Assembly (NCBI GenBank): GCA_037042915.1
Contig: CM073201.1
Location: 1,426,001-1,490,000, forward strand
Origin: Auricularia sp. M13
Taxonomy: Eukaryota; Basidiomycota; Agaricomycetes; Auriculariales; Auriculariaceae
Direction of reading: 5' to 3'
DNA length: 64,000 bases
The position numbers were made by a program, and so were the translations under genes. A model generated the notes under the pieces. It worked only from the letters and a program-made list of their open reading frames with translations. It had not been told where the DNA came from and made no database searches. Each line of letters begins with the position of its first letter. Within the stretch, counting starts at the first letter, position 1. Shown piece after piece: positions 50,228-64,000 of this stretch.

Positions 50228-51540
50228 CTATGTGTTAAATAATTCAGCTTCATCTGCAACAGTCTCGCTATGAATGAAATCCGTTTTGACGAACTTCAGG
50301 CGATTATCTACCAGGCTACCAATCCTATGAAACTTCCAGAATTCGCCGTACATGGAAGCACGATGCGTGATGTATCTAAGTATCCGGCGGTAGAACAAAT
50401 CAGCTTCGGCGTAGCTGAAAGCTAACGAGTCGTGCAAAACTAAGTCGCAGTCCATACTCGGCACCCATATACTTTGCATACTGCTGCTGGTCAACGGTCC
50501 TTGAGCGCGAAGGACACGGAATAGAAATCCGTTCATCTCGTAGTTATATCCCGATGGCACCACCATTGAAGCGTCGCAACCCAGTAGCGGGTCGTAGTCA
50601 TATAGAACGCCGGTGGTACTGAGATCGATGGACAAGCACCGCTCGTCGCCCACCCAGCGATAGCGCCGGCGGAGAGAGTCCTCGATGAGCAGAGTGGACG
50701 ACTCACGGCAATCCATCAAGTCGAAGCCGCGATCCTCGTACTTTTTGATGGCGATGCGGGTGCGATCGTTGTTGATACGCATGACCACACCGCGGCTGCG
50801 GATAAGGGTGTCGAAAGGGAACATGCAGTACGCCTTGTTCCAGGTAATGAAGTTCATGACTACCGCTGGTAAAAGTCAGACAGCGCGAATGACGAACTGT
50901 GCACGATGGACGCACTGGAGTGGAAGCTGAAGACGCAGTACACGGGGGTGGCGGTGGTGCAGACAACGTCGATGTGGCGATTACCGCGTTCAAAGCGCAT
51001 GACGCGCTCAAACGAGTCGTCGGGGATAGAGGCGCCCAGCGGAGCCCTCAGGCTGTCGGAAGGCGGGTTTTCAAACTTGCAGATGAGCTCGTAGCCTTCG
51101 ATCTCGAGGTGATTGCTGAGTTCCGCAGCGAACGGCCATTCGAGGAACAGGTCGAGGTCGGACTCGGGTGCCACGATCGGCTTGTCGTTCGAATCGAGAT
51201 CACCGAAGAAGGCTAGGGCGAACGAACCGGAGATAAGGATGTTGAGCTCGGCTTGAAGACGACGGAATGCAAGGACGTTGTCGGCACGGCGCGAGGGCGC
51301 GATCGATGTTGTAGAACGCTCGGAGACAGCGAGTGCAAGGGCCGTACCATGCACGACATACAGCCCTAGAACTACGGTGCGTTAGTACGCCAGCAGTGTG
51401 CATAATCGTGAGTCGCACCTTTGCAGCTGACCAGCGTTCGGAAGGCACTGGACAACGTATAAGACGATATCGGCGAGGTTCATCGCCCTGGCCGCCGCGG
51501 AAGGCGCATCAAGCGTCGTGGAGACTTGAGCGGGGGGCAT
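50228..51540 (-). CDS. Nucleotidyltransferase-fold protein (F-box-like N-term), frameshifted
   Basis: Starts MPPAQVSTTLDA at ATG 51540. An F-box-like helix pair reads DIVLYVVQCLPNAGQLQSS, then RAVCRAWYGP...CLRAFYNIDRALAPC. After a single-base frame change at about 51285-51295 come DNVLAFRRLQAEL and the nucleotidyltransferase motif ISGSFALAFFG plus PESDLDLFLEW (GSxxL...DxD). After an intron (about 50883-50932) it continues STVVMNFITWNKAYCMFPF and ends AELFNT. This family is widely expanded in Agaricomycetes; its substrate is unknown. A 45-nt intron (gtatgt...gag) could also bypass the break but would lose the family-like segment, so I prefer a frameshift. Confidence 0.55.
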
Positions 51541-57578: not shown

Positions 57579-60065
57579 ATGTTCGGATCCTTCCGGTGGA
57601 GTAGCGCGTCTACTTCCGCTCAAATTTCTTTCTCCTTCACCACGCTGAACGTGGAACCGGGCGGCGGGTTCAGTGTGTTCGACGTACGGATGTGCGCGAG
57701 TGCGGAAACCGTCTGCAACGACCACGAGGATTCCATAATATCCACATGCGACTCATTCGACCGTGACACTGTCGACGCGGACGACGCCGAAATTGCGGCA
57801 GCTCGATCCTCGGCCAACGCGCTGGCCGACTTGTGCGTACAGCTCCGTGCTCATGCAGATGAAACACTGACATGTGGATAGGTTTCCACTGTCTGGGCCC
57901 TGTGCCACCGATGAGAGCGTTCGAGTGGGAAACGTCAGCATACTCGACGTCATTGTGGCACGAGCGTTGAGCGCATTTGACGACAATCTGAATCCGGACC
58001 CCTTGCTGGTCGTGCCGGATCGTGTTGCACGCCGCGTGGTTCAACGTTCGCTGGCTGCTGGCTTCCCGACCTCGCGGGGCCGCAAGCGACGGTCCGACAT
58101 CGACAACGATCAAGACCGTGATGTTATACTGCGTCGCAGCCGCCGCATCGCGGGTCAGGCGGCGCCTCTGGTTATCGACGCGCCTACACGCGCTCCAACT
58201 TCGAACAAGCGCCATAAGGTCGAACGGTCAGCACCTGCGGCGACGCTCCGGCCACCGCAGCTGCAATACCAGCCTACCGTCTTGGCGATCGACGCAGCGC
58301 ATGTCGAGCAGGAGCCGCCATCACAGGGCGCGGTCCAAGAGCATAAAATTGCTCCTAAGGTTCGTCGCACGGTTCGGATTGATTAGAGCGCATACTGATC
58401 ATCGTGTAGCGGCCAAGTCGACGCACGCTGCGCAACGCAGCGGCGAAGAGGAAGCGGGATGCTGCAGCGCGTGCGGCGGATTCTGTGCCGTCTGATGGTA
58501 TGCCCTTGCCTGAGGTGTCGGGCACGCCGCCCTTGCCTGTGTCCGACTTCTCGTTCTCGTTTCGCCCGGTGGATTTTACACGCGCTGGCTTGAAATATGA
58601 ACGACCAGCCCAGCCGGTCAATCCGACCTTATCCGCCTCGCTGGAATGGACCTCGCCACCGTCGAAAGACCCTGCTTTGCCCGTTGAAGTCATTGGCCAA
58701 AGCATGCCCAAGCAGGCGCGACGCCACCACAGCGCCCACTTCTACCAGAAGCGCAGTCGGGTTTATTATGCAACTCTGAGCACTGAGGCTTACCACCCGG
58801 TTGGAGCTGTTGAAGGCAAGATCGCCGTCGAGCAAGTGAACAGGAGCGCTCCGGGCTGGCAAGGTGCTATTAAACGCAAGCAAATTCGCGACGTTCTATG
58901 TCTCTGGGGTACACCGCGGCTCACTGCTCTTCTGGAAGGCATGTTTCTAATTCCATATCGCGAGCGCAACACCGTGATCTGTGACATGAACGGCCGATGC
59001 ATCGTATTCCGCTCGACAGTTGTGCCGCCTCGAGATGGCGTTGACCAAGTGGATCTCTTTGCGCGTGAGGCCTTCCAGCTTTCGCAAGATTGTCCCGTCA
59101 AAGCGGGAGACCGATTGGCCAACCCACGCGGCGACCATTGGTATGGCATCGCAGGAACGCATCGTCAGTATACGAAGGTAATGCATTAATCAAATTTCGG
59201 AGCACAGCTGACAGGCCCATAGACTGCACATCAGACGAGCTTTCAGAAGCTATACGACCAGGAGATCTCGCGTTTTTTCCGCCCGAAGGGTCCCGCGGCT
59301 CTATTAACGTGCGTGCATACAGCATATCTCGATTACTTAGTTAACGAAGGAGCGTATAATCCCACAGAGAATATTTGACCGTGATCATGCGCGCCAGGTT
59401 TCCTGCCATCGTCGCCCGTATGGAGCGTAATCACAAGTGGCACTTCGATAACACGAAGCATTTGGCCGAGCCCACAGTCCCCAAGTTCGGACTGTTTTGG
59501 AACTTTTGCCTCAACGTCCCGTCTCCCAACTCGGGAGTCGAACGCGTGTTCTGTCGACCACATGCCGATCAGAAGAATTGTGCAGTGCTGGTATGCGCCG
59601 TCTTGCCGTTTTGGCCGAAAGGTGAGTTCCGGCTGCATGCTGCCATCGAGACTGACAACATAAAAGGTCTCGTAACAGAAGAGGAATGGTCATGGCTCGT
59701 GATTTGGGAGCTGGGAATTATCATGCAGTGTCCCCGCGGGTCCTTCATCATATACCCTTCGGCCTTGCTCTTCCATTTCAACGTGCGCATCGTCAAATGC
59801 AAGAAAGGCGAGACTCCCACCCCGGAAAACTCGGAGGAAATCAAGCTAGACGGCATTGGTCGCGGCAGCGCAGTATGGTACTCGCAAGCGTCCATGTTTT
59901 CCGTGACCGACGAGCGGGATCGCAAGACGGGGCGGCTCCCGGACTACGAAGAGCTTGCGCGCCGCTGCTTTCCTCAAGTTGTCACACCCGGTATGTTGTC
60001 TATTATGGCCCATGCCCGGGCTAATGATCCTTGTTTAAGAGGACTTGCCGAACGTCGATATATAG
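57579..60065 (+). CDS. TET/JBP-like 2-oxoglutarate/Fe(II) dioxygenase
   Basis: Start taken at ATG 57579; upstream exons possible. The N-terminal about 250 residues are Arg/Asp-rich with nuclear signals (RGRKRRSDIDNDQDRD, RPSRRTLRNAAAKRKRD). The catalytic part begins HFYQKRSRVYYATLSTEAYH. It has TEYLTVIMRARFPAIV, the HxD iron site in FGLFWNFCLNV then RPHADQKNCAVLVCAVLPF (His-Ala-Asp), and the second His in IIYPSALLFHFNV. The WSWLVIWELGIIMQCPRGSF block precedes it. This is the arrangement of the fungal TET/JBP family, which oxidises 5-methylcytosine (or related bases) and is expanded with transposons in basidiomycetes. The C-terminus probably ends VVTPEDLPNVDI after a last intron (60010-60048). 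Confidence 0.65.
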
Positions 60066-60248
60066 CTGGATCTTCAAGCTCAAAAGAAACGTGCTCGCAA
60101 TATTGTACATAATTATTGGGCATCGCATCTAGCGAAGTTTCATTTAATCCATGCAGTTGGCAGAAGTGATGCAATTAGCATTTGAATGTGCAAGGTCCAG
60201 AACGAGATAACGAAAAAAAATATGCAGCAAATGAAAGCTGGAGATAAA

Positions 60249-62320
60249 CTAAAGCTTATGGAATACTTTTCTGGAGGACCTGCTTTGCCTACCGGACGAG
60301 AGCAGAGCTGCTCTGAGGTTGTTCCTCTCCACAGTCAAATGATTGACCTCCCGTTTCAGCGAACGATTGTTGGCCTGCAATGCACGATTCAAGGCTTGCA
60401 ACTCTGCAAGTTGATGCTGCAAGTCGCCTGCTCCAGCAGCATGGCAAGGGCGATCACGGACGGGCACAGGCTGTGAATAAATTCAGCACTTGCATATCGA
60501 TGATGACAGGTAAGATACCTTTACGTCGCGCGATTGTGGTGCGGTATGCGTCACAACAGCATCCACGGACTGGACTGTCATCGTATGATGAGCACAAGCC
60601 ATCTCGATTTAAGCCATACACACCTTTTGATCGCGTAGAAACCTGCGAGGCCTTGCGGTGCGAGCGAATTGCCTGGTCAGCAGGCGCCGCCTGGGGCAGA
60701 ATGGTTGCGTCGTCGTCACCACGACGAAGATCACGAGCTCGCGACACCCGAGCCATGGTTGCCGGATGAGCGTTGTCATCGGTCGCACAAAGAGGCACAA
60801 TGTCCTCGTCAGAGCCGTCGTCGGCAGCTGCGCCCGCGCCGGTCGTGGTATGCGGTAATACATGATCATCCGTCATGTGTACGTCGAGAGTGTGGCCTTG
60901 CAACGTCAAAATAAAAACCACATTAAGGATCTTCGTGAATCACAAGGCGTATTACATACCGTCAAGCTCCATTCTGTCGGTCTTCAAGCGACCTTGATGC
61001 GATGCCTTGCCATCCCTGCTGTCTGCAGCATGGAATGCAGGGCATAAATCCGTCAAATTAGAACGGGAGCCAGAGACTGGCCGAACGCACCCTTGGATGA
61101 AAAAGCAGGCATGGCATTGGTCGTGGAGCGATCGAAAGACCCGGCGTTGAGGGAAGGTCTAGCGTCGTCGTTGCATATGTCGGTGTCGTCGCCTGACTCG
61201 ACGTCCAGCTCGATCTTGACGCCTCCCGCTGGCATCACATGCAGTTCGTTCTTGACGCCGACCGCAGGCTTGACGTCCGGCTCGTTCTTGACCCTGACCG
61301 CAGGTTTGACGTCCTGCTCGAGCTTGACGTCTACTGCTGGCTTCGCGTCCTGCTCGAGCTCGACGCCGAGCGCTGGCTTCACGTCCTGCTCGAGCTTGAC
61401 GCCGAGCGCTGGCTTCGCGTCCTGCTCGAGCTTGACGCCGAGCGCTGGGCCGAGCGCTGGCTTCGCGTCCTGCTCGAGCTTGACGTCTACTGCTGGCTTC
61501 GCGTCCTGCTCGAGCTCGACGCCGAGCGCTGGCTTCACGTCCTGCTCGAGCTTGACGCCGAGCGCTGGCTTCGCGTCCTGCTCGAGCTTGACGTCTACTG
61601 CTGGCTTCGCGTCCTCCTCGAGCTTGACGTCGAGTGCTGGCTTCGCGTCCTGCTCGAGCTTGACGCCGAGCGCTGGCTTCGCGTCCTGCTCGTTCTCGAC
61701 GCCGACGGCGGGCTTGACGTCCAGCTCGACCTTGATGCCGACCGCGGGCTTGAGATCCTGCTCGCCCTTGATGCTGACATCGGACTTGGAGACCTGCTCG
61801 TCTTTAACAGCGACGGCAGGCTTAGCTAATAAAGATGAGCACGCGGCATAACGAATCGGCGGCGTAGCGGCTTACCGTCTAGGTCTTCAGCGCGGCATCG
61901 CGCATTTTCCACCCCGGCCTTCTCGCGGGACGAAGCAGCATGCTCAAAACTATAACCAGGCACGCGTTCAGCAAAGTCACAATACAATCCGTTCACTTAC
62001 CTCGATTGGTGGTCAAACTTGACATAGCGTGGCCGCGCGCAATCTTCCTCGCGCGCGAACGCGACACCAGCTCGCGCAGGTAAGGCTGCGTTTGGAAATT
62101 AGTACGCGAATGAGTATACATAAACTATAAAAGGCTCACGATCCGCATTATGATGCTTGCGATGACCTCCGTGGTCGAGTCGCGGGTTGACGACAGAAGC
62201 GTCCCGCCCGGCCGACGGAGCAAAATTGGAGCAGCGCGATAGGGAATAAGCACGAGCGTTTGTCGAGGTCGAACGGTGGTATGGCTTGGGGCGCGCGCTA
62301 TGCTGCGGCTCAGCGCGCAT
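60249..62320 (-). CDS. Protein with about 17 SUMO-consensus repeats and coiled coil
   Basis: Eight exons (62320-62140, 62085-62001, 61949-61876, 61825-61091, 61022-60960, 60896-60624, 60574-60525, 60470-60249) give 560 residues. Start MRAEPQHSARPKPYHR; residues about 115-320 are 12-residue units of the type KPALGVKLEQDA. Of about 17 units, roughly 14 contain psi-K-x-E (e.g. VKLE, IKVE, VKNE, VKIE), often followed by Q-D or E, the acid-extended SUMO acceptor consensus. After an acidic linker, DGSDEDIVPLCA (about residue 410) has the form of a SUMO-interacting motif. A basic/Asp-rich part follows. The C-terminus LQHQLAELQALNRALQANN...LKREVNHLTVERNNLRAAL is a leucine-rich coiled coil. The stop at 61053 in the longest frame is bypassed by an intron (61090-61023, gtgcgt...gcag) that keeps phase throughout. 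I know no named family. Confidence 0.65.
61195..61825 (-). repeat. 36-bp minisatellite, coding, about 17 units
   Basis: On the coding strand the unit (about 36 bp, GCGAAGCCAGCGCTCGGCGT then AAGCTCGAGCAG) varies at a few fixed bases; some units have Val-Glu in place of Val-Lys (no acceptor). One unit is shortened by an ALGP insertion. Copies cluster into alternating types (GVKLEQ and DVKLEQ), suggesting higher-order duplication. Confidence 0.85.
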
Positions 62321-62655: not shown

Positions 62656-64000
62656 TTAGGACTGCAACGCGTATATAAATGCGGACGCGGTCGTGTGCTC
62701 GCAAACGCTCAGATCCACATTCGCGGTGTATTTGAGCTCGTACTGCGGGATCCCTTCATGCAATTGACCATCGTAAAGCCAAACATCATCTTTCTTGAGT
62801 ATTCTGCAGGAGAAGTGCCTGGCATTTACATCGCTCGTGCTGTAGATGACACACGTTAATTGGTAAATAGCACCTGCTAATACAATCTTCAGTTCGGGAC
62901 GAATACGAAAAGGGGGTAACGAATAAAACACCAGGATGGGCTGAAGTTTATCAGCTTCTGGATTGAGGTTTGTTTGAGCACAGCATGCGGAGAGCAAGGA
63001 CAAGTCTCTGCTAATCTCTGTGTCGACGCGCGTGCCCGAACCCAGTCGGTCAACAAGAAAGTTGTACTTCCCTGCAAAGAGTCTATATAGGCCGGAAAGT
63101 AAATCTCACAATCCAAGCGGATCGAATGGCAATGGGTGCAGTTGATTTCGACGTCGATCACGTGATCACGTAGCGTAACGTCACGTGAAGATCGACTGCA
63201 TAACTGCAGACCGGCGATCAAATCAGCCTGATGCTGTGGCTGCAAAGGAAACGATACTGGATCTGCTTGTGTCATCATGGACCGAATGTGATCTCGCAGA
63301 ACGCACACGGAGGTGGAAGTAGGCTCTTGTGCTGAAGTCAAGAGTTCATAGGCCTCGTTCAGATAGGCTGAGTACGGCGAATGGGACGCCCATGCGCCAC
63401 GTAATGCGGCGCTAAGCTGGCACCAAGCCGATAAAAGGCCCATAAAAATGGAGTCGTATGCACAGGACCAATGTACTGAATCCCATTTGGGTCCAGGATA
63501 AAAGCGCGGTAACTGAGCCGCTGCACGCAGACGCAGCGCCTCGCGATTAAGAGCTAAAACAGTGTTACGCTGATTGGTGCGAACTAGAGATTCACGTGTT
63601 TGCTTACGTTGATTTGATCGCTGCCGTTTGTTTGGAATATCTGTTATATGTTCGTCATCGCGTGTTTTCCGTTTTAAGTTGCTTGAATTTGTGTTGATCA
63701 CTCGCACGCGACTGCCACGTGCTTTCTCCATCTCATGAACAGGGACGTCCATCAAGGGTCCCGCAATGTCCTCACAGTTCACAGCGGTGTTGTGAGCAAG
63801 AATTCGCAACCTCATCAACTCGAAACGCAGAGCCTGAGGAAGAGGTTCGTTGAGGTCGGACAGAGCGAGATCTCTCACGAATGCAATGTCGTTTAAGCTC
63901 CGTGCTCGAGAAATGCTGACATATGAATAAAAACCGGATCTACGCGCCGCGGGATCTGACACAACCTTCGGTAGTGTTCTTCCTTGCGCGATATGACCTG
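62656..64000 (-). CDS. Helitron-like PIF1 helicase end plus C19-like protease, partial
   Basis: The frame enters from the right edge. The first visible residues GHIAQGRTLPKVV and SGFYSYVSISRARSLNDIAF are motifs V-VI of a PIF1-type helicase, as in Helitron proteins. A Lys/Arg-rich linker (NLKRKTRDDEHITDIPNKRQ) follows. Then comes a cysteine-protease-like domain: WDSVHWSCAYDSIFMGLLSAW, with Cys in SCAYDS, the usual start of the protease-like module appended to Agaricomycete Helitron helicases. A CxxC pair lies in NCTHCHSIRLDCEIYFP. At about 62980 the frame changes by one base. The continuation (PILVFYSLPPFRIRPELKI..., FSCRILKKDDVWLYDGQ) runs to the TAA at 62656 and contains the family's later part. 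The N-terminus and any Rep domain lie outside the window. Confidence 0.7.
62656..64000 (-). mobile_element. Partial Helitron-like element
   Basis: Inferred from the helicase/protease gene. Its 5' end is outside the window and its 3' end lies somewhere below 62656. I could not fix a terminal CTRR or hairpin with confidence. Confidence 0.5.

Follow-up and report, generated by a model that had tools for sequence, protein, structure and literature searches.

PML is a scaffold for multiple SUMO attachment which combines a SUMO-interacting motif (SIM), several acceptors and a coiled coil, and the wider PML/TRIM family is characterised by a RING, a B-box and a coiled coil. In bZIP proteins, a basic region is joined to a leucine zipper. 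At the level of the single site, the available text of PMC12630355 gives psi-K-x-E/D as the SUMO consensus, and the available part of PMC3554661 describes synergy control motifs, in which proline or glycine residues flank a SUMO motif; the transcription factor Nurr1 carries one such motif, at lysine 91 (PMC3554661). Among the matches listed by a search of open-access literature with narrow terms (titles and the starts of abstracts), no protein with a tandem array of psi-K-x-E sites is described, which is weak evidence of absence.

Here we describe a gene model from Auricularia sp. M13 whose product, like PML, would unite several candidate acceptors with a SIM-like motif and a coiled coil. Unlike PML/TRIM proteins, it gives no RING or B-box match (Pfam, E up to 10) and its candidate acceptors lie in a minisatellite array. 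Positions are those of the window, i.e., the whole stretch of 64,000 nucleotides that was analysed (C9:1426001-1490000), and the genome searched comprises 52.1 Mb in 14 contigs.

Very probably, 62320-60249 is a gene and not just repeat DNA. The original prediction of one spliced product with consistent exon phases is borne out, except that the eight-exon model (Table 1) yields 562 residues and not 560. All seven introns are of the GT-AG type and measure 48-68 bases, and the phases agree across the eight exons. Such short introns, taken with the neighbouring genes, suggest a basidiomycete. Exon 7 (60574-60519) is needed to keep the phase since direct splicing of 60623-60471 runs into a stop (by eye). 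The GC content is 0.44 in introns vs 0.61 in exons, and length-matched random stretches outside the array exon were equally GC-poor in a fraction of only 0.0012 of 5,000 trials. A CT-N-A-Y motif occurs in five of the seven introns, one of them with the motif misplaced (in an intron of 48 bases, it lies 44 bases ahead of the acceptor), and is absent from the other two. Because the splice sites were picked by eye, the gene model is a fit rather than a blind prediction.

Table 1. Features of the gene model and of its predicted product, in window coordinates.
Feature	Positions	Strand	Remarks	Basis
Whole gene model	60249..62320	-	ATG to stop, 8 exons, 562 aa	GT-AG introns, phases, GC
Exon 1	62140..62320	-	start codon inferred	gene model
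Exon 2	62001..62085	-		gene model
Exon 3	61876..61949	-		gene model
Exon 4	61091..61825	-	contains the array; GC3 0.82	gene model, GC3
Array	61185..61808	-	17 twelve-residue units, four extra residues between units 10 and 11	TRF, unit alignment
Intron 4	61023..61090	-	takes out the stop at 61053; CTAAT 39 bases upstream of intron end	gene model
Exon 5	60960..61022	-		gene model
Exon 6	60624..60896	-	encodes the SIM-like motif; in-genome protein match to itself only	gene model, genome search
SIM-like DEDIVPL	60790..60810	-	residues 409-415	motif pattern
Exon 7	60519..60574	-	phase depends on its inclusion	gene model
Exon 8	60249..60470	-	encodes the zipper; in-genome protein match to itself only	gene model, genome search
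Leucine zipper	60300..60422	-	six Leu at heptad spacing	heptad count, shuffles, fold prediction

The junction between the array and the downstream exons could also be read as the boundary of two genes, the first coding for a repeat protein that terminates at the stop at 61053 and the second, starting near 60876, for a protein with the SIM-like motif and the zipper. The array frame is indeed open as far as this stop, an ATG at 60876 lies in the later frame, and intron 61090-61023 has a GC content of 0.54, which is not low. However, the same intron has GT-AG ends and the CTAAT listed in Table 1, and its removal keeps the phase with the later exons, so that we regard a division into two genes as distinctly improbable.

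The array occupies residues 120-327 of the product, a typical unit being VKLEQDAKPALG. TRF applied to its DNA reports a period of 36, 15.7 copies and a score of 586; the array is a genuine DNA repeat, beyond chance. A recount agrees with the 17 twelve-residue units, about 14 of them with psi-K-x-E, that had been claimed: [VI]-K-x-E, and with it the psi-K-x-E form of the SUMO consensus, is present in 14 of the 17, and K is changed to E in units 4, 9 and 13. These 14 motifs do not count as 14 independent events because the units arose by copying; the 17 units comprise 13 distinct DNA sequences. One extra psi-K-x-E (LKRE) lies outside the array, within the zipper. As in the synergy control motif of Nurr1, psi-K-x-E is found near prolines, which flank 11 of the 14 array sites on both sides (P-x0-4-[VI]KxE-x0-4-P); unlike in Nurr1, there are 14 motifs in tandem and no DNA-binding family is found (Pfam). 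In synergy control motifs the far proline is spaced one residue closer than in 10 of the 11 matching array sites, and a single site matches when the far-side spacing is set to 0-3.

Besides the proposed frame, three frames of more than 200 codons are open across the array, and an open frame is consequently weak evidence here. Long antisense ORFs on the plus strand, at 61048-61851 and 61197-61829, span the array; they arise because the repeat has no stops in those frames. The several open frames would fit a non-coding minisatellite mistaken for a protein, an explanation that we nevertheless consider very improbable in view of the GC-poor introns (P 0.0012 against length-matched random stretches), of a zipper exon that is in phase, and of a frame-specific pN/pS. 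Among the units, this ratio, for which there is no significance value, is 0.61 in the proposed frame and 1.03, 0.86, 1.30, 1.13 and 0.98 in the other five, a variation that does favour the proposed reading frame as far as copies within one gene can tell.

How the motif itself fared among these copies was assessed against a star null, in which the observed number of changes of each unit is scattered over the consensus and the units are treated as independent, although they share descent. Under this null, psi-K-x-E is kept in 14/17 units vs 7.8 expected (p 0.0004), in 11/13 distinct units vs 4.9 (p 0.0004), and in 7/7 units with at least six differences vs 1.4 (p 0.0002), the latter subset having been picked post hoc. 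The original prediction called for Lys and Glu to be maintained at the acceptor positions across strains. Among copies in this one gene, the expectation holds in full for the Glu at position 4 (17/17 units vs 12.0 expected, p 0.002) and in part for the Lys at position 2, which is replaced by E in three units and is not kept above the star null (14/17 vs 12.0, p 0.19; distinct units 11/13, p 0.11). Constraint is not confined to psi-K-x-E; the figure is 15/17 units for each of Asp 6, Lys 8, Pro 9 and Ala 10.

The 13 distinct DNA units were also placed on a neighbour-joining tree, and amino acid changes were counted along it for each column. By this count psi changed once, K twice and E not at all, and x, with six steps, is the fastest column. 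The three steps of psi, K and E together compare with a mean of 8.5 per column triplet, and only 5 of 220 triplets total three or fewer; with conservative amino acid groups, 6 of 220 are as low as psi+K+E. Columns 6, 8, 9 and 10, with two steps each, change almost as rarely as those of the motif. The pattern of change thus fits some constraint on psi-K-x-E, with moderate support for selection on the motif among units and clear support for an x column free to change.

The same data can be explained by a charged, flexible or weakly beta-forming spacer within a zipper protein, in which an early VKxE was multiplied by copying and selection acted on composition. We hold this view to be about as likely as that of a multi-SUMO acceptor, each falling somewhat short of an even chance. 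The array is of mixed charge (30 K/R and 45 D/E in 209 residues), K 2 is no better kept than Asp 6, Lys 8, Pro 9 or Ala 10, and each of the three K-to-E changes abolishes an acceptor. In the single-sequence fold of the array piece, 242 residues long, 16 short strands are seen; confidence is low, with a mean pLDDT of 53.3 (50-70 in 170 residues and <50 in 71). A spacer with incidental motifs accounts less readily for an x column that changes fastest while psi and E remain nearly unchanged.

The C-terminal part of the product fits the coiled coil that had been claimed. When the sequence after the array was shuffled 20,000 times, its six heptad leucines were never matched, and the single-sequence fold of the exon 8 piece (73 residues) consists of one helix over residues 14-60, with block-mean pLDDT values of 96-98 over residues 21-50. 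The six Leu heptads and the Asn at two a positions (register set by eye) are reminiscent of bZIP proteins; unlike in these, the residues preceding the zipper are not basic-rich and form no basic region (by eye), and there is no Pfam bZIP match. The predicted SIM-like motif, DEDIVPL, is likewise present and has an acidic SIM-like pattern. Its shuffle P rises from 0.0018 when the acidic flank is defined strictly to 0.0072 when it is relaxed, and to 0.20 when the hydrophobic core is taken alone, values that refer to a single match and to patterns defined after DEDIVPL was known.

Searches of the genome, which score best candidates only, returned nothing but the query itself for the zipper exon (E up to 0.001) and the SIM exon (E up to 1), and the query and its own antisense for the array (E up to 1). 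No Pfam family matches the protein above the cut-off. At E up to 10, where the HMMER filters discard most matches above E ~0.1, six sub-cut-off matches are obtained, among them coiled-coil families, Erp_C, DUF2996 and Ribosomal_L6; none of the six is a RING, B-box, bZIP or DNA-binding family, and the last three named are judged to reflect chance composition. A sequence search of the PDB gave one marginal match, to the uncharacterised chain 5vj4_A (E 0.0098), and Foldseek found no match to the exon 8 model. Phage records searched with a shortened array gave no match, nor did viral contigs searched with the array contain a relative.

The neighbours named in the original prediction, a Helitron and a TET/JBP-like enzyme, were recovered with different degrees of support. 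The Helitron adjoins the gene at 62892-63998 of the window and extends over C9:1488892-1495834 (L019) on the minus strand in three separate frames, of which the first searched matches PIF1 in Pfam, the second no family, and the third DUF6570 and Helitron_like_N. Its end has five relatives with 35-46% identity, each in a single open frame of 2,347-2,431 codons. The dioxygenase-like gene (58410-60109, plus strand) consists of two long open frames; a genome search gives 10 matches to it at exon level, self-matches counted. Three aligned genomic copies have H68, D70 and H139 in common, a pattern resembling the HxD...H triad of TET/JBP enzymes as given in the available part of PMC12730594. The gene has no Pfam match and the TET/JBP label is therefore without Pfam support; with the HxD...H pattern kept, it is probably a diverged TET/JBP-type enzyme.

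TET-like matches are found at six other places in the genome. The N-terminal, array and C-terminal parts of the product were compared by tblastn (1e-3) with five of these six (L022, L026/L027, L028, L029 and L030; C6:696801 was left out), and no relative was found at any of the five. As the gene is not a constant companion of TET-like matches there, its being transposon cargo was rejected; with no relative found at these five places, its neighbourhood is probably coincidental. An unnamed protein family with no Pfam match is represented at 50231-50875 of the window (minus strand) and at L022:3116-3745 (33% identical, BLASTP 2e-26); on C10 it is flanked by a Helitron-like frame on one side and a TET-like gene on the other, an arrangement not seen in the window.

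SUMO is encoded in the same genome, as judged from sequence matches. Two near-identical genes on C3 (L036 and L037) are read as SUMO in two exons, the GG ends not being seen, and the first exon of L036 matches SMT3/SUMO chains (best 4bkg_A, 5.4e-8). A Rad60-SLD match at C3:3049630 is weakly similar to SUMO2 (4bkg_A, E 4.9e-6) and reaches a stop without GG; it may represent a SUMO-like domain protein whose end could sit in another exon. Among the best Rad60-SLD matches on C5 and C9 are pairs with a spacing of 228 bases, which suggests a polyubiquitin-like arrangement.

We tentatively prefer to read the gene as coding for a dimeric multi-SUMO acceptor or SUMO-dependent assembly platform; SUMO attachment itself is plausible. 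The self-assembling poly-SUMO scaffold suggested in the original prediction is partly supported, in that one plausible gene model brings together its acceptor consensus, SIM-like motif and coiled coil. The spliced gene would be transcribed into the message for a protein that dimerises via its leucine zipper and displays SUMO acceptor sites along a long, flexible array. Several of the 14 psi-K-x-E lysines would then be modified simultaneously by the Ubc9 pathway, dimerisation would double the sites, and the SIM-like motif would bind SUMO attached to other copies or to partners, giving rise to a SUMO-dependent assembly platform. Alternatively, the protein could act as a repressor if joined to a DNA-binding partner. 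A bolder and rather unlikely version is a dedicated dimeric platform for SUMO loading that arose when one acceptor unit expanded, with the number of repeats, and so of acceptor sites, tuning SUMO-driven assembly. If the sites are used, the repeat number would set the SUMO valency within one protein, and a simple set of deletions would allow this valency to be varied, with assembly or repression as the readout.
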